A stretch of DNA of 33,303 nucleotides from Nitrospirae bacterium GWB2_47_37 (lineage in GTDB: Bacteria > Nitrospirota > Thermodesulfovibrionia > Thermodesulfovibrionales > Dissulfurispiraceae), in assembly GCA_001803635.1 (NCBI GenBank), contig MHDU01000007.1, positions 1 through 33,303 of the forward strand. The letters run 5' to 3'. Under the pieces are notes generated by a model. The model was not told the DNA's origin, searched no databases, and was given only the letters and a program-made list of their open reading frames with translations. Below are positions 5,995 to 33,303 of this stretch, in pieces; positions within the stretch are counted from its first letter, which is position 1; each line of letters opens with the position of its first letter. The translations under genes and the position numbers were made by a program.

Positions 5995-6038
5995 AAATCA
6001 TGCATCGGATAGGCATCATGGATGTCTGAGGAGAAGAA

Positions 6039-6967: not shown

Positions 6968-7022
6968 GAGGGAGTGTATGAGTAAAAACAGCTTTGTCTG
7001 GAAGATATTATCAGGAGGAAAT

Positions 7023-10208: not shown

Positions 10209-10220
10209 GGAGGATAGGAC

Positions 10221-11834: not shown

Positions 11835-11867
11835 GGTGCGACAATCGAGGGATAGAAGAGGAATAAT

Positions 11868-15163: not shown

Positions 15164-15249
15164 GGCATGTCCAGACGCCGGTGATTATAAGTTTTGGAAA
15201 AGATAATCTACTCTATAAATTTAAAGTAAGGACATAAAAAGGATTAGTC

Positions 15250-18581: not shown

Positions 18582-19432
18582 TTAGAATCGGGAGAGCATT
18601 TTTTTATCATCCCTGCGGCTTCCTTTACGCCTTCTTCGTCTCCTAACCCTTTGCTCACTGACAGCGCCCTCTGATAATATTTAACGGCATCTCCGCACAT
18701 CTTTTGCTTAAAGAGCATGTCGGCTATGCCTATTAAATCCATCGATATCTTTCTGCCTGCTTCCAGCTTCTTGTCTATGAGAAACGCGTCTTCATAAAAC
18801 TTTATTGCCTCGGTATATTCGCTTTTCGCAGCCTTTGCCTCCGCTATGAGCCTTAAGGAATTAGCCGTTTCAGCCTCATCCCCGCCGGCTTTGTTGAGTG
18901 AGAGCCCTTTATTCCCGTAAGTTATGGCCGAGACTGCGTCTCTCTTTAAAAGCTCTATCCTTCCCTTGAGGTTGTAAATCTTTCCCTGACATTGCGAATC
19001 GCCGCACGAAGACAATGACCTGTCCGTCCAGTCCTTTGCAGTGTCATGCTTCCCTTCATCCAAATAAAGAAGCGCTTTTAAAAATGCCGCATCCGAGATG
19101 TGCGCCGGCCGGTAAGCTACGGCTGAGGCATTTAATATCTCGTCAAGGTATTTATGCGCTTTTTCTTTGTCTCCTAATTTGCGATACGCCGAAGCCGCGT
19201 TAATAAGGTTTATTGCTGTTCCGTCGATATTTTCCATGGAACGGTTGATATTCAATGCCTCGTTATAAAGGTTCAGCGCCCTTCTGTAAGACCCTTTTTT
19301 GAACGCGGACTCCGCCTTCTGATTAAACTCGGCGGCCTTTAACTGCGCGTCCGAAAGGGTCGGCTCTTTATAACCGCCGCAGCCGGCCAACAGCAGGCAA
19401 AAGGCAATGCAAAAGACTCCTGTTTTATTCAT
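18578..19432 (-). CDS. TPR lipoprotein of the Mla-type operon
   Basis: The 284-residue product has a type II signal peptide with lipobox LLAGC (Cys18), followed by about five to six TPR units (for example KAESAFKKGSYRRALNLYNE and YTEAIKFYEDAF). It is the last gene of the minus-strand transport operon and overlaps mlaD by eight bases. That position is often taken by an auxiliary lipoprotein in Mla/Ttg2-type systems, although those are usually not TPR proteins. I infer an outer-membrane or periplasmic scaffold for the MlaD-like protein. Its stop overlaps that of the YdjM-like gene on the other strand. Confidence 0.72.
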   Translation of the reverse strand: MNKTGVFCIAFCLLLAGCGGYKEPTLSDAQLKAAEFNQKAESAFKKGSYRRALNLYNEALNINRSMENIDGTAINLINAASAYRKLGDKEKAHKYLDEILNASAVAYRPAHISDAAFLKALLYLDEGKHDTAKDWTDRSLSSCGDSQCQGKIYNLKGRIELLKRDAVSAITYGNKGLSLNKAGGDEAETANSLRLIAEAKAAKSEYTEAIKFYEDAFLIDKKLEAGRKISMDLIGIADMLFKQKMCGDAVKYYQRALSVSKGLGDEEGVKEAAGMIKKCSPDSN

Positions 19433-20381
19433 AACTGTCCACCTTTAATGTTTTTTCTTCCGGGTTTTTTATGAAGAGGCGCACCGGCCATGTCTTTTTT
19501 ACCGAATCCACCACCTCTTTAGCGCCTTCGGCGACATCGTTTCCTTTTTCAATTATAGACGGGATTTGCGGCGCTGCCTGTTCCGTTGCCTTTTTGATCT
19601 CCTCTGTTGTTTTCTGTATATTTTCGACGCTTTTATTTGCGCGTTCCAGCATGACGGGAATATCCTTATCGACTTTTTTTACAAGGCCGTCCACAGTGTT
19701 TATCGTCTGTTTAGCGGAATCAAGGAGAGAGTCTATTTTTTTAACGGAAGTATTGACGCCCTTATCCGCATCCGTGAGCAGGGAATCGAGGCGCTGTTTT
19801 GTAGCGGGCAGGCCTTCCGCGATTATCCTCAGATTTTTTAAGGTCTGTTTCATATCGCCCTGCGGGTCGTTTATATAAGCGACTATCTGCCTTATATCGC
19901 TGAGGGCCGGTTTTAATTCATCTTTTAATTCAGCCGCTATTTCGCCGAGGCCGCGCGTCCTTTCGAATGCGATAACGCCGTCTTCCTTAACATCTTTTGC
20001 CTTCGCCGAGCCCGGGGTTATTTCTATTACGCTGTCGCCTATAAGCCCTTCTTTAATAAGCCGGGACTCAGAATCGGTTTTTATCCATTTAATATATTTG
20101 GTGTTTATCGACAGTTCTACTTTTACCTTTGCCGCATCGTACAGATAAAGCCTTTTAACCTTACCTATCTTAAAGCCGCTGAGCTTCACTGCCGTGCCTT
20201 CGTTTATGCCCCGCCCGCTTTCCGCGATAAGAAATATTCGCGTCTTTGATGTAAATGCATCGCTCTGTAATCCTACGGATACTATTGCTATGATTATCCC
20301 GATAAGCGCCGCAAGGACAAAAAGACCTATTTTTTTCTCTATGCCTACGAACCTTTCGTCGGTCTCTTTCATGAATTTCAT
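19425..20381 (-). CDS. mlaD: MlaD-like MCE-domain substrate-binding protein
   Basis: The 318-residue product has one transmembrane helix near residues 15-36 and a single MCE domain. Typical features are KTRIFLIAESGRGINEGTAV, then KLSGFKIGKVKRLYL, and LIKEGLIGDSVIEITPG. The C-terminal 160 residues form amphipathic helices with repeated spacing of hydrophobic residues (VKKIDSLLDSAKQTINTVDG), as in longer MCE proteins that form tubes between the membranes. MlaD hexamers bind phospholipid on the periplasmic side of the inner membrane. It starts 10 bases after the ATPase stop in the same operon. ATG 20381 is used; ATG 20372 would remove three residues. Confidence 0.9.
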   Translation of the reverse strand: MKFMKETDERFVGIEKKIGLFVLAALIGIIIAIVSVGLQSDAFTSKTRIFLIAESGRGINEGTAVKLSGFKIGKVKRLYLYDAAKVKVELSINTKYIKWIKTDSESRLIKEGLIGDSVIEITPGSAKAKDVKEDGVIAFERTRGLGEIAAELKDELKPALSDIRQIVAYINDPQGDMKQTLKNLRIIAEGLPATKQRLDSLLTDADKGVNTSVKKIDSLLDSAKQTINTVDGLVKKVDKDIPVMLERANKSVENIQKTTEEIKKATEQAAPQIPSIIEKGNDVAEGAKEVVDSVKKTWPVRLFIKNPEEKTLKVDSYE

Positions 20382-20391
20382 AATTCTGTCC

Positions 20392-21033
20392 TTATAGCCT
20401 TAAGATACCGTCTTCTTTTATTCCTTTTACGGACTGCTCGTCAGGCGTTATATAAACTGACGTCCTGCCCGTTTTTTCCGAATGAAATTTCTCCGTCAGT
20501 TTTATGAACCTTTCGGACATTTCCGGGCTCAGCCCCTCAAATACAGAGTCGTATATCATCAAATCAGGGTCCATGAGCGCTGACCTCACGAACCCTAAGA
20601 GCCTCTTTTCGTGGACAGGAAGCGGTCCCGGAAGCTCTCCCATCATCTCTTCGAGATGGGAAATGTCCATGCCGGCATCTCTAAGCCTTTGAACGGCCTT
20701 TTCTTCGACATCGGTCGGCTTCTTTCCTGAATGATACCATACAGGCAGTACGATATTCTCCCATACCTTGAGATTGCTGATTAACCCGCCGTCCTTCAAA
20801 ACCGTGCCGGTCCTGACGAAAATCCTGTTCAGCTCTTCTTCTGAAAGGGAGTACACTTCCTTGTCGAATAGAAAGACCCTGCCGTGTTCCGGCCTTTCGA
20901 GCCCTAAAATGACGTTGAGCAGCCTTTTGTTTTCATAATCCGAGTTCGTGATAATTTTGTGTACGGAACCCTCCTGTATCCTGAAGGAAAGGTCGTTAAA
21001 ATCTTCCGTAGTTATGTTTTCGAGCCTTATCAT
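20392..21033 (-). CDS. MlaF-like ABC ATPase with all motifs degenerate
   Basis: The 213-residue product occupies the MlaF position and keeps the overall ABC pattern, including GLERPEHGRVFLFDKEV after the P-loop region and EKFHSEKTGRTSVYIT near the end. Every catalytic motif is altered. The Walker A region (residues 29-39) reads TNSDYENKRLL, without the GxxGxGKS/T glycines and lysine. The Q-loop glutamine is a lysine (K80). The signature reads LPGPLPVHEKR (134-144) instead of LSGGQ. Walker B is IYDSVFEGL with Ser163 for the catalytic glutamate. The H-loop histidine is Pro197. The frame is intact and overlaps mlaE by ATGA. It is either a structural, non-hydrolysing subunit or needs a second ATPase encoded elsewhere. 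Confidence 0.82.
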   Translation of the reverse strand: MIRLENITTEDFNDLSFRIQEGSVHKIITNSDYENKRLLNVILGLERPEHGRVFLFDKEVYSLSEEELNRIFVRTGTVLKDGGLISNLKVWENIVLPVWYHSGKKPTDVEEKAVQRLRDAGMDISHLEEMMGELPGPLPVHEKRLLGFVRSALMDPDLMIYDSVFEGLSPEMSERFIKLTEKFHSEKTGRTSVYITPDEQSVKGIKEDGILRL

Positions 21034-21800
21034 GCGAAGGATATAAGGGTAATTATACCATCAAATATGAATACTAAAAACAGGCTCTGCATTACCGCCC
21101 TTGTGGCTGCCTGAGGTATCTCGGTGATGGACGCCTCTACGCTGAATCCCTGATAACAGGAGACCGTCGATATGAGAAGGCCGAATACAAGGCTTTTTGC
21201 GAGGGATACTACCACCTCAAAGAGTCCTAAAGCAGAGAATATCCCTTTGATATTCTGCAGGAAGGGAAGCCCTTTGAATACGGAGGTAAAGGCCAGCCCT
21301 CCCGCAACGGCGGTTATCTGAAAATAGAAGGTAAGAATAAATACCGAGATCGTAATGCCTGCGATCCTCGGAACGAGCAGATAATCCACCGGATCGATGC
21401 CCATGATCCTCAGGCTGTCGGCCTCGTTGTTTACCTTCATCGAGCCGAGTTCCGAAGATATGGCGGTGCCGCTTCTCGCTATGATTATGATGGCTGCAAG
21501 CAGCGGTCCTAACTCTCTCACAACCGTCCATATGAGTATCTTCCCTATAAGCACGGCATTTGCTCCCGCGATATTAATCACCTGCGTGATAATTACTATT
21601 CCTATCAGTATCCCGATTGCCGCGACCTTGCTCAAGGCCTCTATCCCGGTAAAGTATAACTGCTTGTAAAGCACGGACCGTATAGGCGCCCTCCCGAGCA
21701 ACGAGATATTTTTTATGAAATAACAGAGGAGGTTATAGTAGCCCGTCAGGTATCCGAAGGCCTTGATTATGCTCCTCCCTATTTTCAGAGCGCTTATCAT
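21030..21800 (-). CDS. mlaE: MlaE-family ABC transporter permease
   Basis: The 256-residue protein has five or so transmembrane segments and the conserved MlaE core: IVITQVINIAGAN, then WTVVRELGPLLAAIIIIARS, SGTAISSELGSMKVNNEADS and LRIMGIDPVDYLLVPR. This permease moves lipids between the membrane leaflets or between membranes in Mla/Tgd/Mce systems. It is the first gene of the operon mlaE-mlaF-mlaD-TPR lipoprotein. Its ATG is divergent from the Crp/Fnr gene with about 100 bases between them. Since the adjacent ATPase is degenerate, how this permease is energised is open. Confidence 0.9.
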   Translation of the reverse strand: MISALKIGRSIIKAFGYLTGYYNLLCYFIKNISLLGRAPIRSVLYKQLYFTGIEALSKVAAIGILIGIVIITQVINIAGANAVLIGKILIWTVVRELGPLLAAIIIIARSGTAISSELGSMKVNNEADSLRIMGIDPVDYLLVPRIAGITISVFILTFYFQITAVAGGLAFTSVFKGLPFLQNIKGIFSALGLFEVVVSLAKSLVFGLLISTVSCYQGFSVEASITEIPQAATRAVMQSLFLVFIFDGIITLISFA

Positions 21801-21904
21801 AGATTAGATTTTATCATAATCACGAATCGAATGTTTTATATTTCAGTATTTCTATGGATTTGGTAAAATGGATAGAGTTCAGGACAGCCTCACCAGGAGG
21901 TCAG

Positions 21905-22597
21905 ATGAGAAAAGACGCCGATACCGGCCTGATAAAAGAGTTCCTTAAGGAGATACCTATTTTCAAGAGCCTTTCCGACAGGCATTTGAACCGGCTATCG
22001 GAGGACTTCATCGTATGCCGTATGAATAAAGGGGAGACCATATTTCATCAGTCCGACGAGAGCACCGACCTTTATATAATGCTCGACGGCGCGGTTAGGG
22101 CTTCCCTCGTGAATGAGGATGGAGAGGAGCTTGTGCTGGCGGCTTTTAACAAGGGGGATTTTTTCGGCGAGATGAGCCTCCTTGACGGAGAGCCGAGGTC
22201 CGCGACAATGATCGCTGCCGAAAACGCGGCGCTCGGCATATTGAGGCGGGAGACGTTTCTGAGGGCGGTAAAAGATGATCCGGGTATCGCTATCGACCTT
22301 CTTTCCGCAATAGTGCGGAGAATGAGAATGGCGGATGGAATGATAGAATCGCTCGCTTTTTTAGATGTCGGCCAAAGGGTTTTAAAGCTTTTAGTGCAAA
22401 TCGCAAGGACGGAAGGGATAAAAGACAAGGACGGTTTTTTCAGGATAAAAAGGCTTACACATAAGGAACTCGCGGCTCGGACAGGGGCCTCTCGCGAAGC
22501 CGTGTCAAAGGCCATGAAAGTTCTTTCGTTCAGGGACGGCGTAAAGGAGGAAGGCGACTGCTTCCTGGTTTCTCCCCGCGCTGAGGAGATTTTATAA
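21905..22597 (+). CDS. Crp/Fnr-family transcriptional regulator
   Basis: The 230-residue product has an N-terminal cyclic-nucleotide-binding fold (LSDRHLNRLSEDF, then GDFFGEMSLLDGEPRSATM, close to the cAMP-binding pocket pattern with Arg and Ser). A dimerisation helix follows, then a C-terminal winged helix with the recognition helix in TGASREAVSKAMKVL. No FNR-type cysteine cluster is present. ATG 21905 is preferred over 21854 because AGGAGG lies at 21895-21900, although the spacing of four bases is short. It is divergent from mlaE, so it might regulate that operon from the shared 104-base gap; no clear Crp palindrome is visible there. Confidence 0.88.
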   Translation: MRKDADTGLIKEFLKEIPIFKSLSDRHLNRLSEDFIVCRMNKGETIFHQSDESTDLYIMLDGAVRASLVNEDGEELVLAAFNKGDFFGEMSLLDGEPRSATMIAAENAALGILRRETFLRAVKDDPGIAIDLLSAIVRRMRMADGMIESLAFLDVGQRVLKLLVQIARTEGIKDKDGFFRIKRLTHKELAARTGASREAVSKAMKVLSFRDGVKEEGDCFLVSPRAEEIL

Positions 22598-22654: not shown

Positions 22655-22708
22655 TGAAATAGAATAATTAAGAACAGGCTGAATTTAAATATGAGCTTAT
22701 TATGTAAG

Positions 22709-22714
22709 AGGAGG
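22709..22714 (+). promoter_or_regulatory. Ribosome binding site deciding a GTG start
   Basis: AGGAGG lies six bases before GTG 22721. The in-frame ATG 22691 has no such sequence upstream, so the GTG start is favoured for the FlgT-like gene. Confidence 0.65.
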
Positions 22715-22720
22715 GCAGAG

Positions 22721-23908
22721 GTGTTCGGTAAAACAGGTTTATTATTGCTATTAATGCTCGTCTTTTATTCGCAGGAAGCGCTCTGCGGGACAAAATGCAT
22801 AGATTCGGAGGGGGAAGCCGTTATCGTAAATAACGACGTATTTTCAGCAAAAGCCGAGGCCGTTGCGCGGGCGAGGTGGGCGGCCATAGAACAGACGGTA
22901 GGGGTTGAGGTAAAGGCTCAGTCTGTAGTTCAGAACATGGCTCTCGTGGATGACGCCGTAAGCAAGCAGGTAAGAGGCGTTGTTACAGGGCATAAAATAT
23001 TGAGAGAGGAAAACAGGAAGGATACTATTTGGGTAAAGATAAACGCGTGTGTAGAGCCTGCAAAGGCCAAGGAAGCGGTTTCATCTCTCGCGCTCAACAA
23101 TTCTATAGCCGTTTTTATACCCGCAAGAAAGCCGAAAGTTGTAAAAGAATTCGAGGAAAAATACAAAACCCCTTACAGCAAAACACAGAGAAGCGGGCTT
23201 GAGACAAGGGATGAATATGACGAGACGAATATTCTATCCGAAACCCTTATAGGCAGGCTTATAGAGCAGGGTTATACCGTTGCCGATGTAGCGCCTACAC
23301 ATGCTATGGAAGCAAGGGAAATAGAAGACGCAATAAAAAGCGGCAATTTCCTTATGTTGAGGACGCTCATGTATAAGTTCCTGTCGAATGTTATCCTTAT
23401 CGGCAAGGTCGATTATGCGATTTCCACAAGAAAGGGCGAGGATATAGGATACGGCGTATCAATGCCTTTTAATAACGTGACCGTCAGGCTTACCTACCGC
23501 ATCGTAACCCGAGATGCCTCGGGCAGAACCGTTATTCTTACCGCGGGAACAGAGGAAGGAAAAGGGCTTGCGATTGGTTTGGAGGACGCCGCTGCAAACG
23601 GGATGAAGGATTTGTCGCAAAAGATGACGCCTATTGTTTTAGAAAAGCTCGGTCAATATATAAAGGGTATTGCGAAGAAGATACAGGTTAAGGTGGACGG
23701 CGTTGCGGATATAAACTCCAATTTTGAAGTAAAGGACGCATTGCAACACATAGCATGGGTCGCAGGGGTAGAGGAGAAGGGCCTTGGAGAGTTTGTAGTG
23801 AGTTATCCTGAAAACGCGATTTACCTTGCCAACAGCATAGCTCAGAAAGGAATATTTCAGGTTGTTAACTTTTCGCCGTATTCCATATCCGTAAAATACC
23901 GCAAATAA
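22721..23908 (+). CDS. Exported FlgT/LPP20-like N-terminal domain protein
   Basis: From GTG 22721 the product has 395 residues: a signal peptide (core GLLLLLMLVFY), then a domain with EGEAVIVNNDVFSAKAEAVA and RARWAAIEQTVGVEVKAQS. The alanine/arginine-spaced helix followed by a glycine-valine pair is the pattern of FlgT N-terminal and LPP20-type domains. A middle region (VFIPARKP, about residues 125-135, then ETLIGRLIEQGYTVADV) resembles the nucleotide-binding-like middle domain of FlgT, and a beta-rich C-terminal part follows. FlgT in Vibrio stabilises the flagellar outer-membrane ring, but no flagellar gene is in the window. It leads directly into the CsgG-family gene (17 bases) and was probably cotranscribed with it. 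Confidence 0.65.
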   Translation: MFGKTGLLLLLMLVFYSQEALCGTKCIDSEGEAVIVNNDVFSAKAEAVARARWAAIEQTVGVEVKAQSVVQNMALVDDAVSKQVRGVVTGHKILREENRKDTIWVKINACVEPAKAKEAVSSLALNNSIAVFIPARKPKVVKEFEEKYKTPYSKTQRSGLETRDEYDETNILSETLIGRLIEQGYTVADVAPTHAMEAREIEDAIKSGNFLMLRTLMYKFLSNVILIGKVDYAISTRKGEDIGYGVSMPFNNVTVRLTYRIVTRDASGRTVILTAGTEEGKGLAIGLEDAAANGMKDLSQKMTPIVLEKLGQYIKGIAKKIQVKVDGVADINSNFEVKDALQHIAWVAGVEEKGLGEFVVSYPENAIYLANSIAQKGIFQVVNFSPYSISVKYRK

Positions 23909-23925
23909 CTCAGGAGGATAATTTT

Positions 23926-24837
23926 ATGTCTTTTTTAAGAACAATTTTTGTATTGACGGGACTTTTTGTGATCTTATGCGGCAATGCCTCGGCATCGGAA
24001 CGTATGAGGATTGCGATTATGCCGTTTGAGATAGGCGCGTCCGGAGTGCCGTCCGACGCGGCTGTTGGCCTTGCGGATATGCTGGTGACCGCCCTTGTTA
24101 AGACAAGGGCTTATGACATCGTTGAGAGGGAACAACTGCAGAAGATCTTGAGTGAGCAGAAGTTCGGGATGAGCGGCCTTGTAGATCCTTCTACAGCAGT
24201 GCAAATAGGGAAAATGTTAGGTGTAAAAAAAATCATTATCGGCAAGATCACACAGATGGGTGTAACCCAATCGGAGATGATCTTCATAAAAGTTGCTACG
24301 GCGAAAGTCTCTATTGACATAAGGATTATCGATGTGGAAACAGGCATTATAGAGAGCGCGGAGACGGCAACAGGAGACGAGACTCTCACAAGGATTTCCG
24401 GAGACAATCTCGCAAGCCTGCTCCAGAAGGAGCAGCTTAGGGGCGTGCAGGCAGGCGTTTCATCTTTCGACCAGTCTGTATTTGCAAATGCTTCAAGAAA
24501 GGCAGTCGATTCAATGGTAGACAAAATTATGGAGAATGTCGAGCAATTGGGATATGTCATTGCGGTCGAAGGCGCTGTAATAATGATAGACCTGACGAAG
24601 TCTCACGGTCTTGAAGTGGGAACGCGCATTCAGGTTGTGAGGATGGGTAAATCCATAATACATCCAATAACAAAGAAGGTGCTCGGGGCGGGCAAGGAGA
24701 CAGTCGGCAATATAGAGATTACCGAGCTTGAGCCGGAGTGGAGCAAGGCCAAACTTTTGGACGCAAAAGGTGAAATCAGAGTAGGAGACAGGGTTTCTAC
24801 AAAGGGAATAAAAAGGAAGAAAAAAGAAGACGAGTAG
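23926..24837 (+). CDS. CsgG-family exported protein with FlgT-C-like tail
   Basis: The 303-residue product has a signal peptide (cleavage near ASA/SE). A CsgG-type domain spans about residues 25-210. It starts RMRIAIMPFEIG, continues LADMLVTALVKTRAYDIVER and EQLQKILSEQKF, and has the GKMLGVKKIIIGKIT strand-helix, then VSIDIRIIDVETGIIESAET. The C-terminal 80 residues (SHGLEVGTRIQVVR, GDRVSTKG) resemble the small beta domain at the end of FlgT. CsgG forms the curli export pore, but this protein lacks a lipobox cysteine, and no CsgA, B, E or F gene is present, so pore formation is not implied. GGAGGATAA precedes the ATG. Confidence 0.8.
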   Translation: MSFLRTIFVLTGLFVILCGNASASERMRIAIMPFEIGASGVPSDAAVGLADMLVTALVKTRAYDIVEREQLQKILSEQKFGMSGLVDPSTAVQIGKMLGVKKIIIGKITQMGVTQSEMIFIKVATAKVSIDIRIIDVETGIIESAETATGDETLTRISGDNLASLLQKEQLRGVQAGVSSFDQSVFANASRKAVDSMVDKIMENVEQLGYVIAVEGAVIMIDLTKSHGLEVGTRIQVVRMGKSIIHPITKKVLGAGKETVGNIEITELEPEWSKAKLLDAKGEIRVGDRVSTKGIKRKKKEDE

Positions 24838-24927
24838 CCCGGGATGTGAAAATTACCTTTACATGCGGGACGCCAGGTGTTATAAATGCAGTATGAAGGG
24901 TTATTACATTTCAGGAGGTGTTTTGAC

Positions 24928-26154
24928 ATGAGCAGAGATATGTTTAGATTTTTGGCAATGGGAGTATTGTTGGCGGCATTTATTTTCGGTTGCGCGCCGC
25001 AGGAGGCCGCGAAATGCACGTCTCCGGAGGACAATCCGCAGCATCATTATTTGATGGGAATGAAGGCGCTTGAGGAAGGAAAGATCGACGTCGCGCAAAG
25101 CAAGTTCGAACGGGCTGTGTATTGCGAGGATAAGTTTGCTCCCGCGTACAGCGGTCTTGCGATTGTAACTGCCGAAAGGGCAAAAAGGCAGACGGATGCG
25201 GGATTCAGAAAGGTCGAGACAACAAGGGCGCTCGACAATCTAAAGAAGGCGGAGAAGCTTGCAGATACGGCCGAGGATAAATTCGATCATCTCACGGCGG
25301 GCATCAGGGTCTACACGACTTTAAAGACCTCCGAGTGGTTGAAAAAGGCTGAGGAGGCATTCGGCGACATAAGGATGCTCAAGCTTGATGAGAGAAAACT
25401 CGTCTATTATCAGGGCACGGAGGCCGCCGATTATTTCATGGGCATAGCATATCTTGAAGCCCTCGAATTCAGGCAGGCGAGGGATAAGTTCGCGGATGTG
25501 CTGAAAGCAAAGAGGGAAGGTAAGTGGCATGAAAAGGCGGAAAAGGCGCATAAGCGTGTAGACAAGATAGTCCGCGCAATGGCAGGCATTACAGTAGGCG
25601 ATGTCGGCAAGCAGATAGCAGTTAAGAATTCGGTGACAAGGGCAGACCTTGCAGCCTTGCTTATTGATGAAATGAAATTAGATAAGCTGTTTGCTCGGTT
25701 TATTCCGCAGTCTAAGTTGGATGCTATTATGCCTGAGTTTATCCCTGCTGATATTCTGAACCATCACTTCAGAGAAGAGATTCTTACTCTGATGAAATGG
25801 AAAATTAGAGGTTTCGAGGCACCTCAAGATCCTGTTACAAAGGCACCCTTGTTTAAACCTGATAGTGTAGTGAAAAGGGTTGAGATGGCATTGATGCTTG
25901 AGGATATCTTGATAAAAATTGTTGGGGATGAAAATGTTGCTACAAGATACTACAAGAATAGCGTCTCTGACTTTGCGGATGTTGAAGCGACAAAATACTA
26001 TTCAAATGCTGTAAAGACGGTTGTATCTACAGGTTTGATGGAAACTGAAAAGGGTTATCCACCTGAGTTTCGTTTGTTTGTTCCAGTTGATGGAGCTGAT
26101 GCGCTCATAGCTATCAGAGAGTTGATTTATATCAGGGATAAGGGAAGGTATTGA
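24928..26154 (+). CDS. TPR lipoprotein with SLH-like C-terminus
   Basis: ATG 24928 follows AGGAGGTG; an earlier in-frame ATG at 24886 lacks a good site. The 408-residue product has lipobox IFGC (Cys22) and a TPR-like region (about residues 30-200). Two or three S-layer-homology-like motifs follow from about residue 221 (VTRADLAALLIDEMKLDKLF; FKPDSVVKRVEMALMLEDIL; FADVEATKYYSNAVKTVVS). SLH domains bind cell-wall polymers in many bacteria. The DNA of the N-terminal part is clearly GC-richer than that after about 25690. The change lies at the end of a 134-bp tract shared with the gene at 26236, so the C-terminus looks grafted. Probably anchored in the envelope. Confidence 0.75.
   Translation: MSRDMFRFLAMGVLLAAFIFGCAPQEAAKCTSPEDNPQHHYLMGMKALEEGKIDVAQSKFERAVYCEDKFAPAYSGLAIVTAERAKRQTDAGFRKVETTRALDNLKKAEKLADTAEDKFDHLTAGIRVYTTLKTSEWLKKAEEAFGDIRMLKLDERKLVYYQGTEAADYFMGIAYLEALEFRQARDKFADVLKAKREGKWHEKAEKAHKRVDKIVRAMAGITVGDVGKQIAVKNSVTRADLAALLIDEMKLDKLFARFIPQSKLDAIMPEFIPADILNHHFREEILTLMKWKIRGFEAPQDPVTKAPLFKPDSVVKRVEMALMLEDILIKIVGDENVATRYYKNSVSDFADVEATKYYSNAVKTVVSTGLMETEKGYPPEFRLFVPVDGADALIAIRELIYIRDKGRY
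25561..25694 (+). repeat. 134-bp SLH-like module tract, copy 1
   Basis: Identical to 27616-27749 except for one base (A25627 versus G27682, giving Asn or Asp). Flanking sequence of the two genes is clearly diverged although the proteins remain similar. This indicates a recent conversion tract inside older paralogous domains. Confidence 0.88.
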
Positions 26155-26173
26155 TTTGCAGAGTTAAGACTAA

Positions 26174-26207
26174 TTTAGGAGGAGCAATATTTATTGCTCC
26201 TCCTAAA
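26174..26207 (+). other. Long perfect hairpin containing a Shine-Dalgarno
   Basis: TTTAGGAGGAGCAATA at 26174-26189 pairs perfectly with 26192-26207 across two bases (16 pairs). It starts 19 bases after the TPR-SLH gene stop. No U-run follows on either strand, so it is not a typical intrinsic terminator. The left arm contains AGGAGG and the right arm its complement. It could stabilise the 3' end of the upstream message, be a processing site, or control translation. Confidence 0.7.
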
Positions 26208-26235
26208 AGCATAATAAAAATGTAAGGAAGTTGAA

Positions 26236-28203
26236 ATGAAAAAAAATATATATATATTTATTTTTATATTTATATTTGTTTCCTTGCCATTTTATCTGTA
26301 TGCTGAAACACGCGGGCTTACTATAAATATTAAGACTCCAGATGGGAAAAGCGTAGATCTATACAATGGCTCTTTTGCTCTTATTATTGGTGCAAGCAAC
26401 TACACTGAAGGTTGGCCCAAGTTGCCCGGCGTCAAGAAGGATGTGGATGCGGTAAAAGCAGTTCTCGAAGAGCAGGGCTTTCATGTTACTGTCGTCATGG
26501 ACCCCAAAAAAGACCAGATGGTGCAGGCCTTCGAGAATTTCATCAATAAATACGGCCAGGACCAGGACAACCGGCTTCTCTTTTATTTTGCGGGACATGG
26601 GTATACGGTAAAGATGACCTATGGCGAAGAAATGGGGTACATCGTGCCGGTAGATGCACCGAATCCGCACAATGACCAGAACCGTTTTCTGTCCACTGCG
26701 ATGGACATGCAGCTGATAGAAGTGTTTGCAAAACGCATACAGTCCAAGCACGCCCTCTTTCTTTTTGACAGTTGTTTCTCCGGCTCATTATTCGCCCTGT
26801 CTCGTGCGGTGCCCGAGAGTATATCGTACAAGACCGCAAGACCTGTCCGCCAATTCATCACCTCGGGAGGCGCGGACGAACAGGTACCGGACACGAGCAT
26901 TTTTCGGCAGCAGTTTATCTCAGCCCTTAAAGGAGAGACCAACCTTGGTAAAGACGGCTATATAACCGGCACAGCACTTGGTGAATATCTTCAAGACTCG
27001 GTAGTCAACTATTCAAAGGGAGCACAGCATCCCCAGTACGGTAAAATCCGCAACCCGAACCTGGACAAGGGAGATTTTGTGTTTGTTTTAAATAAGACCA
27101 ATGATGAACAAAGTATGTTTATTATTCATGCTGAAGAGCAACGTGTTAATGAAGAAAGGAAGAGCATAAAGAAAGAAAAGGAAAAATATGAACATGATAA
27201 AGTAGTATATGCAGAGCGTGAGAAAGAGGAGAAAGAGAAACTAATAAAAGATGCTGAGAGTGCTGAGAAGATGATTGCGTTACAGGAAGAAAGAAGGAAA
27301 TTAGAGGAGGAGCGCAAGGAGATTGATAGAATACGCATTTTAGGAAAAAAAGAGGCGCTAAAAAGAGAGAGGGAGAAAAAGAAAATAGAAGAGGAACGGG
27401 AAAAAATAGAGAAAAAGAAGCTTTATGCAAATTTACCAAAGGACGGTATTAAGTATACTATTTCTGGAGGAGAAGGAGGTGAAAACTATCATAACGGTCT
27501 CAAATATTTAAGTTCATTAGAGTTTAGAAAGGCAAGGGATAAGTTTGCAGACGAACTGAATTCGTCCAGAGAAGGGCCTTTTCACGCAGACGCTGACAAA
27601 GCCTGGAAGAAAACGGACAAGATAGTCCGCGCAATGGCAGGCATTACAGTAGGCGATGTCGGCAAGCAGATAGCAGTTAAGGATTCGGTGACAAGGGCAG
27701 ACCTTGCAGCCTTGCTTATTGATGAAATGAAATTAGATAAGCTGTTTGCAGGACGCATCCACGTAAAATCACAGATTGACAAGATGAAGACCGAGTTCAT
27801 TCCCGCTGATGTCCTTAACCATTCGTTTAAGGAAGAGATACTTACTATAATGAAGTGGAAGGTAAGAGGCCTGGAGCCTAAATACGATACAGCAACAAAG
27901 GCGTATCTCTTTAAACCTACGGATGTGGTGAAGCGCGGAGAGATGGCGTTTATACTCGAAGACGTTTTGATAAAACTCACAGGAGATGAGAAACTTGTCA
28001 CAGCATATTTTTTTGGACAGGATAAATCACCATACCCTGACGTCAAACCGACCTCTCCGTTTTATAACGCGGTTATGAATATGACGTCGAGGGGAATCAT
28101 GGAAGGCGAGCTTTCCGGAGAGTTCAGGATAGATGCGCCTGTTGACGGGGCGGAGGCGTTGTTTGCCCTGAGGGTGTTGAAACAGAAGATGAATATTTAT
28201 TAA
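26236..28203 (+). CDS. Exported caspase with coiled coil and SLH-like module
   Basis: The 655-residue product has a very AT-rich, isoleucine/phenylalanine-rich signal peptide (residues 1-24). A C14 caspase domain occupies about residues 40-285, with His121 in AGHG and Cys180 in DSCFSG and the ALIIGASNY strand at its start. A highly charged Glu/Lys/Arg coiled coil runs from about 290 to 395. A short TPR-like stretch (SLEFRKARDKFADEL) leads to an SLH-like region from about 470 to the end. That last part is paralogous to the lipoprotein just upstream. The arrangement suggests a protease held at the cell surface by SLH-like domains through a stalk. Catalysis is inferred from the intact dyad. Confidence 0.87.
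   Translation: MKKNIYIFIFIFIFVSLPFYLYAETRGLTINIKTPDGKSVDLYNGSFALIIGASNYTEGWPKLPGVKKDVDAVKAVLEEQGFHVTVVMDPKKDQMVQAFENFINKYGQDQDNRLLFYFAGHGYTVKMTYGEEMGYIVPVDAPNPHNDQNRFLSTAMDMQLIEVFAKRIQSKHALFLFDSCFSGSLFALSRAVPESISYKTARPVRQFITSGGADEQVPDTSIFRQQFISALKGETNLGKDGYITGTALGEYLQDSVVNYSKGAQHPQYGKIRNPNLDKGDFVFVLNKTNDEQSMFIIHAEEQRVNEERKSIKKEKEKYEHDKVVYAEREKEEKEKLIKDAESAEKMIALQEERRKLEEERKEIDRIRILGKKEALKREREKKKIEEEREKIEKKKLYANLPKDGIKYTISGGEGGENYHNGLKYLSSLEFRKARDKFADELNSSREGPFHADADKAWKKTDKIVRAMAGITVGDVGKQIAVKDSVTRADLAALLIDEMKLDKLFAGRIHVKSQIDKMKTEFIPADVLNHSFKEEILTIMKWKVRGLEPKYDTATKAYLFKPTDVVKRGEMAFILEDVLIKLTGDEKLVTAYFFGQDKSPYPDVKPTSPFYNAVMNMTSRGIMEGELSGEFRIDAPVDGAEALFALRVLKQKMNIY
27616..27749 (+). repeat. 134-bp SLH-like module tract, copy 2
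   Basis: Counterpart of 25561-25694, differing at one base. The distance between copies is 2055 bp, direct orientation. Confidence 0.88.
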
Positions 28204-28237
28204 AAGAAGGCAAAAGGCCATAGGCGATTTAAACGAA

Positions 28238-28265
28238 TTGAACGATGTTGAACGATTTGAACAAT
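28238..28265 (+). repeat. Short tandem repeat before an LPP20-like gene
   Basis: TTGAACGATG is followed by TTGAACGATT and a partial TGAACAAT, three units of about ten bases between two genes. It ends 20 bases before ATG 28286. It might be a binding site array or slippage product; nothing more can be said. Confidence 0.5.
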
Positions 28266-28285
28266 ATTTCGAAGAGGAGGAGAGT

Positions 28286-29206
28286 ATGAGAAGAAAAGTA
28301 TTTATAATGGTGTTGTTAATAATGGGGTTGACCGGCATCGCATTTGCACAGGAGCCGCCGTCAACTGCGGCCATTGACGCGAGGTTCTCGGCTGCCAACG
28401 AATGGCTGAACAAGAATAATCTGAGCGTAACCGCAGCGCCTGAACAGGCATTCGTCAATGACTATATACTTGTTGTAGGTGAAGGACTACCTTCGCCTGC
28501 TGCAAAGTCCCCGGCGCAGAGGCGGTTAACCGCTGAAAGGGCTGCTACTGTGGTGGCATACCGTCAGTTGACCGAATTCATAGAGGGGTTTGCCCTTGTT
28601 GGAGATACCCTCGTTAAGGATGCGGAGCTTCAGTATGACGTGATAAGGGTAGCTGTCGCGGGTTTCGTAAAAGGCGCTCAACTTGTTTATAAGGAATACA
28701 ATCAGCAGGAAGGTTCGGCCCTTGTGATAGTCAAAGTAGGGATGACAGGACCTCAGAGTTTTGCCAAGACCATGTATGCAAAGATGCTGGGCGATCCGCA
28801 AATCAAAAGAGATATTATCGGAGTGCCGGGGCCTGAGTACAGGCACAAGCCTGTTCCTCTCGAAGAAAGATATGACGGCTTAATTATCGATGCCACGGGA
28901 CAGAGCTTCAGGCCTGCGCTGATAAACAGGATATTCACGCCCAAGGGAGACGTGCTCTATGACCCGTCGAAGATAAGCCAGAAGGTTTTGGTAGAGCAGG
29001 GGTGCGGCGAATACACGAACAGCGTTGAGAAGGCAAAGGCAGCGCTGGAGTCGAGAGGGGTGAAAAATCCCCTTGTCGTAACCGCTTCCGGAGCCGTTAC
29101 GGCATCGGATCTGCAGGTAAGCAATGATGACGCCGTAAGGATATATTCCGCAAACCAGAAGGCCAATTTTTTTGCCTCGGCTAAGGTGGCTTTTGTTCTG
29201 AAATAA
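28286..29206 (+). CDS. Exported LPP20/FlgP-like protein
   Basis: ATG 28286 follows GAGGAGGAG and starts a signal peptide (cleavage near AFAQ/EP). A TTG further upstream lies in the short tandem repeat and has no ribosome binding site. The 306-residue product has the LPP20-type helix in ERAATVVAYRQLTEFIEGFA, followed by the strand pattern of that fold (YDVIRVAVAGFVKGAQLVYK, then SALVIVKVGM). The C-terminal 130 residues (ERYDGLIIDATGQSFRPAL, NRIFTPKGDVLYDPSKIS) form a second domain found after such regions in proteins of unknown role. LPP20-like FlgP works in flagellar outer-membrane structures in some bacteria; no flagellar gene is near. Confidence 0.65.
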   Translation: MRRKVFIMVLLIMGLTGIAFAQEPPSTAAIDARFSAANEWLNKNNLSVTAAPEQAFVNDYILVVGEGLPSPAAKSPAQRRLTAERAATVVAYRQLTEFIEGFALVGDTLVKDAELQYDVIRVAVAGFVKGAQLVYKEYNQQEGSALVIVKVGMTGPQSFAKTMYAKMLGDPQIKRDIIGVPGPEYRHKPVPLEERYDGLIIDATGQSFRPALINRIFTPKGDVLYDPSKISQKVLVEQGCGEYTNSVEKAKAALESRGVKNPLVVTASGAVTASDLQVSNDDAVRIYSANQKANFFASAKVAFVLK

Positions 29207-29211
29207 CAAGT

Positions 29212-29249
29212 TATAGGCGGGGGATGTGACACCGCATCCCCCGCCTATA
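29212..29249 (+). terminator. GC-rich intercistronic hairpin, U-tract lacking
   Basis: TATAGGCGGGGGATG at 29212-29226 pairs perfectly over 15 bases with 29235-29249 around an eight-base loop. It begins five bases after the stop of the LPP20-like gene. It is strong enough to act as a terminator stem, but no run of T follows on the plus strand, so RNA processing or 3' stabilisation is as likely. Confidence 0.45.
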
Positions 29250-29277
29250 CGCCTTATCACATAAATAAGGGGGCGTA

Positions 29278-30090
29278 ATGAGAAAGTATGTCTTCATAAT
29301 TTTATCTCTCTTGATGTTTTTGCCTTTTAGCGCCGATCTCTCTTTCGGTTATCAAAATGAGATTAGAGCCCTTTCCTCTGCCGTTTCTTCGGGTATGGAT
29401 AAAGTAGGCAGCAGAAAGAGGGTTGCCGTAGCCGATTTTACGGATCAGAAAGGCAATATAACCGAACTCGGGAAATTCATGGCCGATGAGCTGACGTCCG
29501 AATTGTTGAAATCGGCTCAGGGCTTCGAGGTGATGGAAAGGGCGCAGTTAAAGAGCGTTGCCGGACAGGAGGATTTCGCCCTGCCGTCGCCTTATGATCA
29601 GAGCGCCGTTAAGAGGCTCGGAGAATCCGCAAGGCTGGGAGCAGTAGTTACAGGCATAATTACACCATTCAGTTCCACGGTGAGGGTAACGATAAATGTC
29701 GTCTCTACTTATATGCCTAAGGTTGTGCATTCCAAGACGGTAGATATACCGCGTAGGGGTAAAATAGCGGAATTGCTTTCAGGCGGCATGAAACCGTCCG
29801 TAAATTTCGATCTGTCCGGCAGGTGGTATGGTAACGACGGCGGAATTTATTATGTCCGCCAGATAGGCAACAAAATTTGGTGGTTTGGAGAAAATCACCC
29901 CAATGCGCCTTCGTGGTCAAACGTTGCCTATGGAGAGATTCACGATACAGAGATAAGGCTTCAATGGTCGGATGTCCCTAAAGGTTATATCATGAACAGC
30001 GGAATTCTTGTACTCGAAATTTTATCAAACGGAAGGATTGCGGCAAGAAATAAGACCGGCGGGTTCGGCGGGTCGGAATGGACGAGATGA
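29278..30090 (+). CDS. Exported FlgO-like protein with C-terminal beta domain
   Basis: The 270-residue product has a signal peptide and an FlgO-type domain from about residue 40 to 165: KRVAVADFTDQKGNITELGK, then a helix with FMADELTSELL, FEVMERAQLKS and a GAVVTGIITPF strand. The C-terminal 90 residues form a distinct small domain with WYGNDGGIYYVRQIGN and KIWWFGE, tryptophan- and glycine-rich and probably a beta barrel. I have seen this pattern elsewhere but cannot name it. FlgO proteins are outer-membrane partners of FlgP and FlgT in Vibrio. The next gene overlaps it by ATGA. Confidence 0.7.
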   Translation: MRKYVFIILSLLMFLPFSADLSFGYQNEIRALSSAVSSGMDKVGSRKRVAVADFTDQKGNITELGKFMADELTSELLKSAQGFEVMERAQLKSVAGQEDFALPSPYDQSAVKRLGESARLGAVVTGIITPFSSTVRVTINVVSTYMPKVVHSKTVDIPRRGKIAELLSGGMKPSVNFDLSGRWYGNDGGIYYVRQIGNKIWWFGENHPNAPSWSNVAYGEIHDTEIRLQWSDVPKGYIMNSGILVLEILSNGRIAARNKTGGFGGSEWTR

Positions 30091-30572
30091 AGCATCGGAG
30101 TTTTTTTAAAACAATAATAATCCCCTGTAGCATTTTGTTGCAGGGTTTTTCTTTTTTGGCGTTTGTCCTCTTACCGTCCGACATTGTTTTAGCCGAAAAA
30201 ACACAGCGGTATTTTCCGTCGGCAAAAGAACATTCTCAGAAAATAAAGCAGATAGCGGGAATTATCGCCGTCGAGATAAACAGGAGGGGTATAAAGACCG
30301 TAGAGGTTAAAGAATTTACTGATATAAGGGGCAGGCCGTCGGCTGTCGGAAAGGATATTGCAAAAGAGTTTGAAAGACAGATGGCTGCGGCGGAGGGTAG
30401 AGGCTTTGCTATAATAAAGAACGATGCAAAGGCTGTCGTTACCGGAACTGTTACGCCTTTTAAAGAAAGAGAGAAATGGCAGATTAAGATAAAGGTAGTA
30501 TCGGCGGAAACAGGCGCGGTTATTACGGCATACACTGGGATTCTTAAAAAGACCAAGGGGATCAAAAAATGA
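30087..30572 (+). CDS. Exported short FlgO-like protein
   Basis: ATG 30087 overlaps the stop of the previous gene (ATGA) and is preferred to ATG 30078. The 161-residue product has a long hydrophobic leader (residues 8-35) and then an FlgO-like domain (VEVKEFTDIRGRPSAVGK, AKEFERQMAAAEGRGFAIIK, AVVTGTVTPFKEREKWQIKI, KVVSAETGAVITAY). It is shorter than its neighbour and lacks the tryptophan-rich C-terminal domain. The two are likely diverged tandem paralogues made from one message. Envelope location is inferred. Confidence 0.65.
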   Translation: MKHRSFFKTIIIPCSILLQGFSFLAFVLLPSDIVLAEKTQRYFPSAKEHSQKIKQIAGIIAVEINRRGIKTVEVKEFTDIRGRPSAVGKDIAKEFERQMAAAEGRGFAIIKNDAKAVVTGTVTPFKEREKWQIKIKVVSAETGAVITAYTGILKKTKGIKK

Positions 30573-30589
30573 GACTGATATATACGGCG

Positions 30590-30651
30590 GCAACAATCCG
30601 CCGGTCAAAGGCACAATGTGGATAGATAAGGTGAGGTTTTATAGGGAGTGA
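30590..30651 (+). pseudogene. Possible C-terminal remnant of a lost gene
   Basis: In a frame different from the upstream gene, bases up to the TGA at 30649-30651 read GGNNPPVKGTMWIDKVRFYR then E and stop. The MWIDKVRFYR ending looks like the last strand of a carbohydrate-binding or CIA30-like beta-sandwich domain. Only this short tail is convincing, so I treat it as a relic. Chance is not excluded. Confidence 0.3.
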
Positions 30652-30713
30652 CACCTCAAGAAGGTTGTAAAATAAGAAAATTTTTGGGAAGCTTTATTTT
30701 TAAGGAGGTAATT

Positions 30714-31328
30714 ATGCTAAGGAGGGATGCAAGGGCTGCGTTTGTTGCAATATTGGCAATGTCTTGTACGATGTTCATCGGATGTGCATTCGTTGATCAG
30801 AAGGTTGATTTGAGCTACGAAAAGGTTGTTAATACAAGAGGCGGCTCAGGCGACGTCTTTATTGCAAAACCCAAAGATCATCATAATATTATGAAAAAGG
30901 CGGATGGTTGGCTTATCGGAACGGTAAAAAACACTTATGGCATGAAGACGGCTGATGTGGTTACGGAGAATGACATTGGTGATTGGGTTGTCCGTGCACT
31001 CACACAGGAGTTAAGTTTTGCCGGATACAATGTTATGCCGGTAACAATGCTGCCGGATAATGTATCAAAGGGAATTGACTTAACTGTTTTAAAAGTATTT
31101 GTAGACCAGGATCCCGGTTTCTGGACAGTGGGAGCTATAAGCGATGTGCAGTTTGCAGTTGAGATGTGGAAGAACGGCATGAAGGTAAAAAGTTTTAATG
31201 TCTCGGCAAAAGGAGACGATCGTTCAATGATGGGGTCAGCCGAAACTAAGGCAATTTCTTTGCGAAAAGCAATGCAGGCTGCGATGCAGCAGGCAGTGCC
31301 TGAGATAATAAAGACACTTGAACAGTAA
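30714..31328 (+). CDS. YajG-like lipoprotein
   Basis: ATG 30714 follows AAGGAGGTAATT; a GTG at 30648 in frame is less likely. The 204-residue product has lipobox FIGC (Cys24). Its arrangement recalls YajG-type lipoproteins: a charged start, a WLIGTVKNTYG strand, a helix with WVVRALTQELSFAGYNV, a strand with IDLTVLKVFVDQDPG, and a C-terminal helix with SLRKAMQAAMQQAVPEIIKT. Homology by shape is all I can claim. It ends 16 bases before the caspase lipoprotein and belongs to the same transcriptional run. Confidence 0.6.
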   Translation: MLRRDARAAFVAILAMSCTMFIGCAFVDQKVDLSYEKVVNTRGGSGDVFIAKPKDHHNIMKKADGWLIGTVKNTYGMKTADVVTENDIGDWVVRALTQELSFAGYNVMPVTMLPDNVSKGIDLTVLKVFVDQDPGFWTVGAISDVQFAVEMWKNGMKVKSFNVSAKGDDRSMMGSAETKAISLRKAMQAAMQQAVPEIIKTLEQ

Positions 31329-31344
31329 GGAGTGTGATATTGAA

Positions 31345-32523
31345 ATGGCAGTAAGTTTTCGCATAAAGATAGTTTTATTGCCTGCACTGCTAATTATTGC
31401 AGGATGTAGCATGTATGAATTTAAAGACCCTACCGGTGCACAATTACAAGTCCGGTATACCTCTCCTCAACAAGAAAAAATATCGGCCCCAAAGAAAAAA
31501 ATAAAGAAAAGAATAGAAGAAGAACCTGTCGCCGCGCCTCCTTTAGACGAAAAACTCCCTCCTTCTCGTCCCGACACCTATGCGGTAGTAATAGGCATAG
31601 ATTATAAAGGCAGAGAGGATATACCTGATTTGCAGTATCCATCACAGGACGCAAAGAAAATATACAACATACTCACAGATCCAAGATACGGGGGAGTGCC
31701 GAAAGAAAACGCAGTATTGTTATTGAACGAAAATGCTACAAGGAACGAAATGATATCGGCATTGAGAAAGATAAAGACATGGGACGGATATGTGTATGTC
31801 TATTACTCAGGGCATGGAGCGCCTAAGACAAAGGGGGATAAGTTCATAGATGCCTTTTTAGTGCCTAATGACGTAGTAATAAGCGACCCTGAAGCAATGG
31901 AAGACACGGCAATAAAAATATCATATCTTCAGGAACTTGTAGAGACATCAAATGCAAGGGGAGTAATGCTTGCCCTTGATGCCTGTTTTTCAGGTGGAGG
32001 CAAATCCATAGTGCCGAAGGGAGGAAAGCCTCTGGTAGGAATGCTCGTAAATCCTGAGATGCTGAAGCCCAAAGGCGCAGGCAAAGTAATAATCACATCA
32101 TCCGCTACCAACCAGCAGTCATGGGAAGACGAAACAGAGCTGAAGTCAGGCATATTCAGTCACTATTTCTTGGAGGGATTGAAAGGTAAAGCAAGCAAGG
32201 ACATATGGGTAAAGGTTGATGAACTTGCAGAGTATGTAAAAGACAATGTATCCAAGGCAGCCCGTAAACTCAAAGGACAGGAGCAGACCCCTCAAATCAC
32301 GGGAAATGCAGACTTCGCAGTAACTAGGAATTGGGAGAGGGCAAAGGTAATGGACATAGAGATAGCGAGGAACAAACTGAAGACTGCATTTGAAAAAGGT
32401 ATTATATCGGCAGAACAATTAAACAAAGCACTTGATGAATTAAAGACAAAAAAACACTCAAAGACCCTCGATGCATTCCTTGAAGGCAAGATAGAGGAGA
32501 AGAAGTTCGGGGAACTGTATTAA
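31345..32523 (+). CDS. Caspase lipoprotein with SHOCT-like tail
   Basis: The 392-residue product starts at ATG 31345 (AGGAG at 31328-31332, a long 12-base spacing; ATT 31339 has better spacing). Lipobox IIAGC gives Cys21, so the protein is lipid-anchored. A lysine/proline-rich linker to about residue 75 is followed by a C14 caspase domain (YAVVIGIDYKG, His157 in SGHG, Cys214 in DACFSG, TSSATNQQSWEDET) up to about residue 335. The C-terminal 50 residues (LKTAFEKGIISAEQLNKALD) resemble a SHOCT motif, a short helical segment found at the ends of many envelope proteins. It is directly followed by the FlgT-like/DUF4384 gene one base after its stop. Confidence 0.85.
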   Translation: MAVSFRIKIVLLPALLIIAGCSMYEFKDPTGAQLQVRYTSPQQEKISAPKKKIKKRIEEEPVAAPPLDEKLPPSRPDTYAVVIGIDYKGREDIPDLQYPSQDAKKIYNILTDPRYGGVPKENAVLLLNENATRNEMISALRKIKTWDGYVYVYYSGHGAPKTKGDKFIDAFLVPNDVVISDPEAMEDTAIKISYLQELVETSNARGVMLALDACFSGGGKSIVPKGGKPLVGMLVNPEMLKPKGAGKVIITSSATNQQSWEDETELKSGIFSHYFLEGLKGKASKDIWVKVDELAEYVKDNVSKAARKLKGQEQTPQITGNADFAVTRNWERAKVMDIEIARNKLKTAFEKGIISAEQLNKALDELKTKKHSKTLDAFLEGKIEEKKFGELY

Positions 32524-32524
32524 C

Positions 32525-33303
32525 ATGAAAAATCTACTTTTGTTTTCGGCATTAATGCTGATAAGTTTTCCTGTCTTTGCCTCTGAAAAGTCAGTATGGG
32601 TGGAGTCAGACGGCGAGGCGTATATGAGCGAAGTTGAAACTCCAAAAGAAGTTATGGAAAGGGCAAAGAAAGACGCACAGAACAAGGCAATTGAAAAAGC
32701 CCGCGGCGTGTTCATAAGATCCCATACCCTTGTCTCAAACAGCCAGCTTACCGAGGATTTGATTTATGCAGCGGTGAGAGGGAAGATCGAAAGGGTTAAT
32801 GTAACCAAAAAAGGCTGGGATGAAAAGGACAGGAACCTTTACAGGGTCAGGCTTAAAGCCCTTGTAAGCCCTGTGTATCCGGAAAGGGGCAAGGGCATAG
32901 CGCTTAAAGTCTCTCTCTCAAAGGCAGACCTGAAAGAAGGCGCTAATGTAAAAATATTTTATCAGGCAAATATCGACTGTTATGTTTATATCTTTTCAGT
33001 TGCCGCCGACGGCTCCGTTACGTTGCTGCTGCCGAATTCCATGAATCAGGAGAATTTTATTACGGCTGAAAAGGCATATAAATTTCCTCCGGCTAACAGC
33101 TCAATTCGTTTGAAAGCGCTGTTTCTGCCGGACTATAAAGGCAATACAGCGGAAGAAAAGATAAAGGTTATAGCCACAAGGAAAAAAGAGGACATTGTGC
33201 CCCTCGGTTTTCAGGAAGGCATGTTCAAGGTGTATGACGCAAGATCCACAGGCATGATAAGCGATTTGGTAAAAAGGCTCAATCAGCTTGAGCCGGATGA
33301 CTG
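32525..33303 (+). CDS. Exported FlgT-like DUF4384 protein, partial
   Basis: This frame starts at ATG 32525, one base after the caspase lipoprotein stop, and stays open to the window end (259 codons seen). A signal peptide (cleavage near VFAS/EK) is followed by an LPP20/FlgT-N-like domain (ESDGEAYMSEVETPKEVMER, AIEKARGVFIRSHTLVS). A DUF4384 domain then reads GANVKIFYQANIDCYVYIFS, ADGSVTLLLPN and EEKIKVIATRKKED. DUF4384 is often fused to or placed next to bacterial C14 peptidases, as here. The C-terminus is outside the window. Confidence 0.8.
   Translation, partial: MKNLLLFSALMLISFPVFASEKSVWVESDGEAYMSEVETPKEVMERAKKDAQNKAIEKARGVFIRSHTLVSNSQLTEDLIYAAVRGKIERVNVTKKGWDEKDRNLYRVRLKALVSPVYPERGKGIALKVSLSKADLKEGANVKIFYQANIDCYVYIFSVAADGSVTLLLPNSMNQENFITAEKAYKFPPANSSIRLKALFLPDYKGNTAEEKIKVIATRKKEDIVPLGFQEGMFKVYDARSTGMISDLVKRLNQLEPDD

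Follow-up and report, generated by a model that had tools for sequence, protein, structure and literature searches.

A conserved, probably flagellum-independent locus of FlgT-, FlgP-, FlgO- and CsgG-like proteins accompanied by exported caspases

Genes of the run and their resemblance to flagellar ring proteins

The DNA analysed here, referred to as the window, is the entire contig C7 of Nitrospirae bacterium GWB2_47_37 (MHDU01000007.1; 33,303 nucleotides), a 98%-complete draft genome of 2.47 Mb. Its last part carries a run of ten genes, named here R to ZZ (22691-33301), all with intact open frames and on one strand, the plus strand. A first examination of the letters alone, called here the sequence-only reading, had seen in this run FlgO-, FlgP-, FlgT- and CsgG-like proteins together with caspases, and had suggested that a ring or complex similar to the outer-membrane rings of Vibrio could assemble around the caspases or be cut by them. 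Our analysis of fold predictions and sequence profiles supports a putative FlgT/FlgP-type scaffold, with R carrying the FlgT fold and V the FlgP domain.

Gene R (22691..23908), which had been read as FlgT-like from position 22721, encodes a protein with a signal peptide and the N-terminal and middle domains of FlgT. Its own match to FlgT_N (26.2 bits) is slightly below the cut-off of 28.8, and 30 of the 34 members of the R family match this domain, the best of them at 1.6e-8. Moreover, the predicted fold of R (mean predicted local distance difference test score, pLDDT, of 74.5) has FlgT (3w1e) as its top Foldseek match, with an E-value of 7.4e-8, followed by the LPHT-ring FlgT of Vibrio and then CsgG. 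Structure comparison of R gave a Z-score of about 11 and places the middle domain in the TolB/PelC/LptE/CsgG-like group.

The FlgP-like identity proposed for the gene at 28286 was recovered by a different route, despite the lack of any Pfam family above chance level in a scan of 15 members of the V family. Gene V (28238..29206, with a likely start at 28286) encodes a protein with a signal peptide. A profile built from 60 V proteins recognises the FlgP of both Campylobacter (7.3e-15) and Vibrio (1.7e-10), the matches covering 83-85 residues; the alignment with Campylobacter FlgP is ungapped and spans the ring-hairpin region. The structural model of V (mean pLDDT 78.5) shows an SHS2 domain of the FlgP/Lpp20/FlgT_N type followed by a C-terminal domain. 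According to a study of the Campylobacter motor, FlgP family members that form rings have extra sequence inserted after the SHS2 helix and before the second strand, a feature also found in FlgT (PMC12222027). The model of V tentatively places a short hairpin of two strands in this region (107-111 and 114-119), where the pLDDT is under 50, and a ring is thus plausible. The C-terminal domain of V superposes on domain 2 of Treponema pallidum Tp0624 (5jir) with a Z-score of 14.8 and 2.0 Å over 111 residues, whereas the OmpA-like third domain of Tp0624 is missing from V and the gene surroundings of the two proteins differ. A resemblance of this second domain to caspase-2/3 chains was discarded as noise (Z-scores of 2.5-2.8). 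As a separate observation, second and weaker V-like matches covering the FlgP part only (E about 1e-18 to 1e-23) occur in six Geobacter-type genomes (G080, G082, G083, G084, G087 and G107), several of them interrupted by a stop in the matched stretch.

The remaining ring-type genes largely fit what had been read from the sequence. Gene S (23926..24837) encodes a CsgG-like protein (86.8 bits, with LpoB at 24 bits), whose FlgT-C-like tail is weak in score (FlgT_C 15 bits; a match of 0.0055 to the tail of a TsaP/LysM protein). Gene W (29278..30090) matches FlgO over the cut-off (24.7 against 22.6 bits) and CsgG at 23.1 bits. Gene X, read as FlgO-like from 30087 and with its start now set to 30078 (30078..30572), is slightly under that cut-off at 21.9 bits and has orthologues in the loci of relatives. 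The last gene, ZZ (32525..33301), is cut by the contig end; as had been proposed, it is FlgT-like in its N-terminal part, which resembles the N-terminus of R homologues (about 5e-7), and it carries a DUF4384 domain over the cut-off (74 bits). Gene Y (30648..31328) encodes a lipoprotein with a weak Lipoprotein_16-like match (20.6 bits, cut-off 25), and its orthologue adjoins the counterpart of the caspase gene Z in genome G019.

In comparison with the flagellar H ring or basal disk of Vibrio and Campylobacter, the run shares the FlgT fold (R), the FlgP SHS2 domain with a putative hairpin-insert region (V) and the FlgO family (W), all in exported proteins. It differs in the extra Tp0624-D2-like domain of V, in the addition of a lipoprotein with TPR and SLH domains (T), CsgG-like proteins and caspases, and in that the V locus also occurs where the genome has no flagellum and lies at a distance from flagellar genes.

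Two hairpins of 15 perfect or near-perfect pairs each separate T from U (26174-26207) and V from W (29212-29249); both have terminator-like tails on the minus strand, and they could split the operon or be repeat elements. A second cluster occurs on host contig C9 (locus L050) and comprises a transglutaminase-like gene (u0), a caspase 80% identical to Z, the gene u1 and another caspase. Judged by its gene order, syntenic with genome G007, this cluster might follow on from the window past 33303; comparison of the window end with the ends of C9 gave zero sequence overlap.

Distribution of the locus and its relation to flagella

One scan of genome contigs gave 62 V loci, which span Nitrospirota, Geobacteraceae/Desulfuromonadales, Syntrophaceae, Nitrospinota, other deltaproteobacterial drafts and one genome labelled Aquificaceae. 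At nearly all of them V is directly preceded by T, the gene for a TPR and SLH lipoprotein (24886..26154, lipobox FGC), which is conserved within the order and in other phyla and whose SLH domain was present in 28 of the 28 family members scanned. R and S stand before T in Nitrospirota and several other lineages, with S-type proteins being the least conserved part and missing from many T-V loci. In many Geobacteraceae, the T-V pair lacks R and S and has an unvarying setting, with the ROK-type kinase-like gene u2 before them and u7 and u8 after. Six such loci (L084, L086, L088, L089, L112 and L115) show u2 before and u7, u8, u11 and u12 after the pair, and contain no FlgT, CsgG or caspase genes. 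The pair is also present in the isolates Geobacter sp. OR-1 and Geomesophilobacter sediminis.

Other neighbours recur around this core. Among 79 loci compared, in which a few genomes found via two tools are counted twice, u0 occurs at 37, u1 (a GNA1162-like protein plus a TPR lipoprotein) at 21, a FecR protein at 15 and a CHASE2-adenylate cyclase at 10. In the window, the gene directly upstream of the run (Q, 21854..22597, plus strand) encodes a Crp/FNR-type regulator (cNMP_binding 80.8 bits, HTH_Crp_2); its orthologue keeps the same position in relatives of the order, and in many Nitrospirota the gene before the run is a regulator of the Crp type. Next to it, on the minus strand (18578..21800), lies a divergent Mla-type operon with MlaE (193 bits), MlaF, MlaD (51 bits) and a TPR lipoprotein, which is kept in several relatives: four Nitrospirota loci (L035, L037, L038 and L061) have such an operon upstream in divergent orientation, and six deltaproteobacterial ones (L106-L109, L111 and L114) have it after V in the same direction.

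The sequence-only reading had pointed to the absence of flagellar and curli genes, which holds for the window. For the genome as a whole it holds only for curli, since a search for curlin repeats in the whole host genome gave no match, whereas contig C76 carries FlgI and flagellin-family matches occur on contigs C5 and C76, so that the implied premise of a host without flagella was wrong. The host is thus flagellated by its genes, and the possibility had to be considered that the ring-type genes serve its flagellum as accessory motor parts, comparable to an H ring or basal disk, from a site separate from the other flagellar genes and with the caspases as mere neighbours. In favour of it are the host genes just mentioned, the joint presence of FlgO, FlgP and FlgT homologues, which recalls the flagellar H ring, and the closed genome G051, where a Crp-T-V-CHAT array (L048) comes immediately after a fli/flg cluster. 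However, V loci are found in five genomes that are 98-100% complete and have neither FlgI nor flagellin (G031, G043, G050, G054 and G059). Moreover, in a set of 60 relatives FlgI was as frequent with V (11 of 16 genomes) as without it (30 of 44; p=1.0), and flagellar genes of the tested kind stand beside V at that single locus of G051. Hence these families are not confined to the surroundings of flagellar genes, a case that the sequence-only reading had raised against itself, and membership in a flagellum was rejected; since it was tested in this way, we do not class the locus as a flagellar ring. The motor-part explanation is mostly refuted by the non-flagellated hosts and appears very improbable to us, and we regard the locus as conserved and, with high confidence, independent of the flagellum. 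In the same line, a curli secretion system was rejected: a CsgG family protein is present in S and a CsgG/PelC/TolB-like middle domain in R, as in the curli channel CsgG and its relatives PelC and LpoB, but the genome has no curlin and S bears the FlgT_C/TsaP-like tail instead.

Caspases at the locus and the fusion of a caspase to T

The sequence-only reading had counted two caspases and two SLH-like proteins in the run. Both caspases stand, with C14 domains over the cut-off in U (26236..28203; 78.6 bits) and Z (31318..32523; 59.4 bits); the two SLH-like proteins do not form a separate pair, because one of them is the caspase U itself (SLH 52.5 bits). Three more caspases, fused to WD40 repeats (2263, 6909 and 12191), lie upstream on the plus strand (2263..17937), in one run with a TPR-CHAT protein (15250) and small genes between them; we consider this group as associated and not as core. 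These WD40-caspases are exported and their repeats are very long and highly alike, and related ones recur near the locus in genomes G007, G019 and G043. The His-Cys dyad is intact in each of the five window caspases, and all have leader sequences, as read by eye; Z has in addition a lipobox (AGC) and orthologues in the loci of genomes G001 and G019. U and Z share the C14 domain and the dyad with other prokaryotic caspases (metacaspases and orthocaspases), from which they differ in being exported or lipidated and, for U, in the fusion to the SLH-bearing domain of T.

At V loci in general, a lipobox was found in 12 of 29 caspases versus 20 of 370 other open reading frames with a crude predictor; as our home-made signal-peptide predictor over-calls (10 of 23 Crp proteins), only lipobox calls and leaders read by eye were used. 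A 2012 survey of prokaryotic caspases described cell-surface operons and possible signal peptides, its text being silent on SLH, DUF4384 and CsgG (PMC3501461).

The association between caspases and the locus is statistical as well as local, in opposition to the lack of co-occurrence that the sequence-only reading had considered as a possible outcome. C14 proteins are present in 13 of the 16 relatives with V and in 11 of the 44 without it (p=1.8e-4). They lie within 15 kb of V in 7 of 16 relatives of the order, against 0.91 expected (1e-5), and in 8 of 50 further V genomes, against 1.17 expected (1.5e-5 by simulation). For DUF4384, 31 of 56 cases have a C14 gene within 5 kb, where 0.66 would be expected; these positions were read by hand from match tables, related genomes are not independent, and contig breaks depress the observed counts. 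In the tree of caspase domains from V loci, the Z type, Z-like paralogues, the WD40 type, the U type and two Geobacteraceae types form well-supported separate groups, which indicates that different caspases were recruited to the locus more than once. A pair of HEPN-like and nucleotidyltransferase-like genes (u13/u14, named by eye from the sequence) was also seen among or near the caspases at loci L034, L035, L038 and L081.

A physical link between a caspase and the locus is offered by U, which consists of an exported caspase (from residues 47-191 on), a charged coil and a second copy of the C-terminal half of T (residues ~400-655). This C-terminal part is 72-79% identical to the C-termini of T at most of the relatives' loci compared, and only 51% identical to the T that adjoins it in the host. 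The caspase half is closest to stand-alone caspases located among unrelated genes (host contig C72 and genomes G027 and G032), and no match spanning both halves was found in any other of the 176 genomes of the order. The simplest reading of these comparisons is that U is a duplicated T gene whose front part has given way to a caspase. As a single case, the fusion may point to the C-terminal half of T as a module on which a caspase docks.

A candidate envelope scaffold and its alternatives

We propose that the locus encodes a non-flagellar scaffold of the FlgT/FlgP type at the outer membrane and in the periplasm, with exchangeable exported caspases. V and R would form, together with W, X and S, FlgP/FlgT-type rings or belts beneath the outer membrane, and T would use its SLH and TPR parts to anchor these structures, either on the wall or on further proteins. 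Exported caspases would dock on the scaffold, U by its copied T domain and Z by its lipid anchor, and would then act as periplasmic proteases cutting envelope proteins. The role of the whole would be outer-membrane maintenance or a stress response under a cyclic-AMP-type control, and not motility, as suggested by the Mla operon, the Crp-type regulator and the genes for CHASE2-cyclase and FecR proteins at the loci of relatives. Our confidence declines along these steps, from the ring to the T tether, to the docking and cutting by caspases and to the physiological role. A ring-like assembly is about evenly balanced between holding and failing, and a functional union of caspases and scaffold could go either way, while outer-membrane homeostasis as the role is a rather doubtful proposal. 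The explanation as a whole is held tentatively, at somewhat less than an even chance. In its broadest form, the proposal is of a widespread non-flagellar envelope machine, composed of a TPR-SLH lipoprotein and ring proteins of the FlgT, FlgP, FlgO and CsgG types. This machine would carry exported caspases as exchangeable proteases in the periplasm, or in other lineages CHAT or transglutaminase-like proteins, and the caspases would act on the cell envelope from outside the cytoplasm. This form is possible and again rather on the doubtful side.

Several observations weigh against this proposal. Most V loci lack a caspase within 10-15 kb, and caspases are therefore not part of the core; in many Geobacteraceae, T and V stand alone among housekeeping-like genes. 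The fusion U exists in one genome of the 176 and is known from a draft assembly alone. The hairpin of V is modelled with a pLDDT below 50 and the corresponding insert of R is unresolved in its model. The link with Mla operons amounts to about two independent arrangements or lineages. Finally, classical SLH binding to a pyruvylated wall polymer is unsupported, as the pyruvyl transferase CsaB was found in none of the 16 relatives with V (host included) searched for it; the classical SLH ligand is therefore doubtful, and the tether may be of the protein-protein kind.

Among the alternatives, the one that survives best accepts the envelope locus as a real system and takes caspases, CHAT proteins, HEPN/MNT pairs and DUF4384 proteins as cargo of a gene-acquisition hot spot, with no functional tie and with U as an accidental fusion. 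The caspases do belong to several lineages and lie near V at a minority of loci, the nearest caspase relatives of U adjoin unrelated genes elsewhere (L049, L052 and L053), and tandem caspase copies and HEPN/MNT pairs differ between close relatives. On the other hand, the recruitment was repeated in at least three lineages of two phyla, and an in-frame fusion to the own domain of T, together with shared export signals, would fit a functional tie better. We regard the cargo explanation as a serious possibility, though one that we would not expect to be right. Clearly less probable is that S, W and X form a CsgG- or PelC-like secretion channel for a protein fibre or a polysaccharide, with R, V and T as accessory rings and the caspases processing the substrate. 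The CsgG score of S and the likeness of the middle domain of R to CsgG, PelC, TolB and LptE speak for such a channel, but the genome lacks curlin repeats, no candidate substrate or synthase was seen in the locus, and S-type proteins are precisely those that many T-V loci do without. Below the motor-part explanation discussed before, an anti-phage or programmed-death system with caspases as infection-triggered suicide effectors is the least credible of all: caspases serve as effectors in known bacterial defence and the generic caspase model of PADLOC matches U and Z, but these two are the only PADLOC matches among ten genes of the run, the core shows vertical stability from phylum to phylum, and the export signals and the lipobox indicate that these caspases would act outside the cytoplasm. 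A phage origin was likewise rejected, a PHROGs search giving a single weak match, to Z, and a plasmid search returned 17 records that carry the caspase part only, at under 60% identity.

Returning to the scaffold with exchangeable caspases, each of its protein families was already known. In the open-access literature searched, we found no earlier description of a conserved locus in which the FlgT/FlgP/FlgO set occurs free of a flagellum, nor of its repeated pairing with exported caspases, and these two features would be the new elements as far as that literature shows. If the proposal is correct, the outer rings of some flagellar motors would be part of a broader family of envelope scaffolds able to function in the absence of flagella, and the conserved non-flagellar FlgT/FlgP set would be a testable candidate relative, with a bearing on the origin of flagellar outer rings. 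For bacterial caspases, which are mostly treated as enzymes of death or defence in the cytoplasm, it would in turn provide a periplasmic setting, in which the natural fusion U would name the docking partner. The T-V pair is among the best-conserved uncharacterised lipoprotein pairs seen in our analysis, and its presence in Geobacter-type isolates would make these ideas testable.

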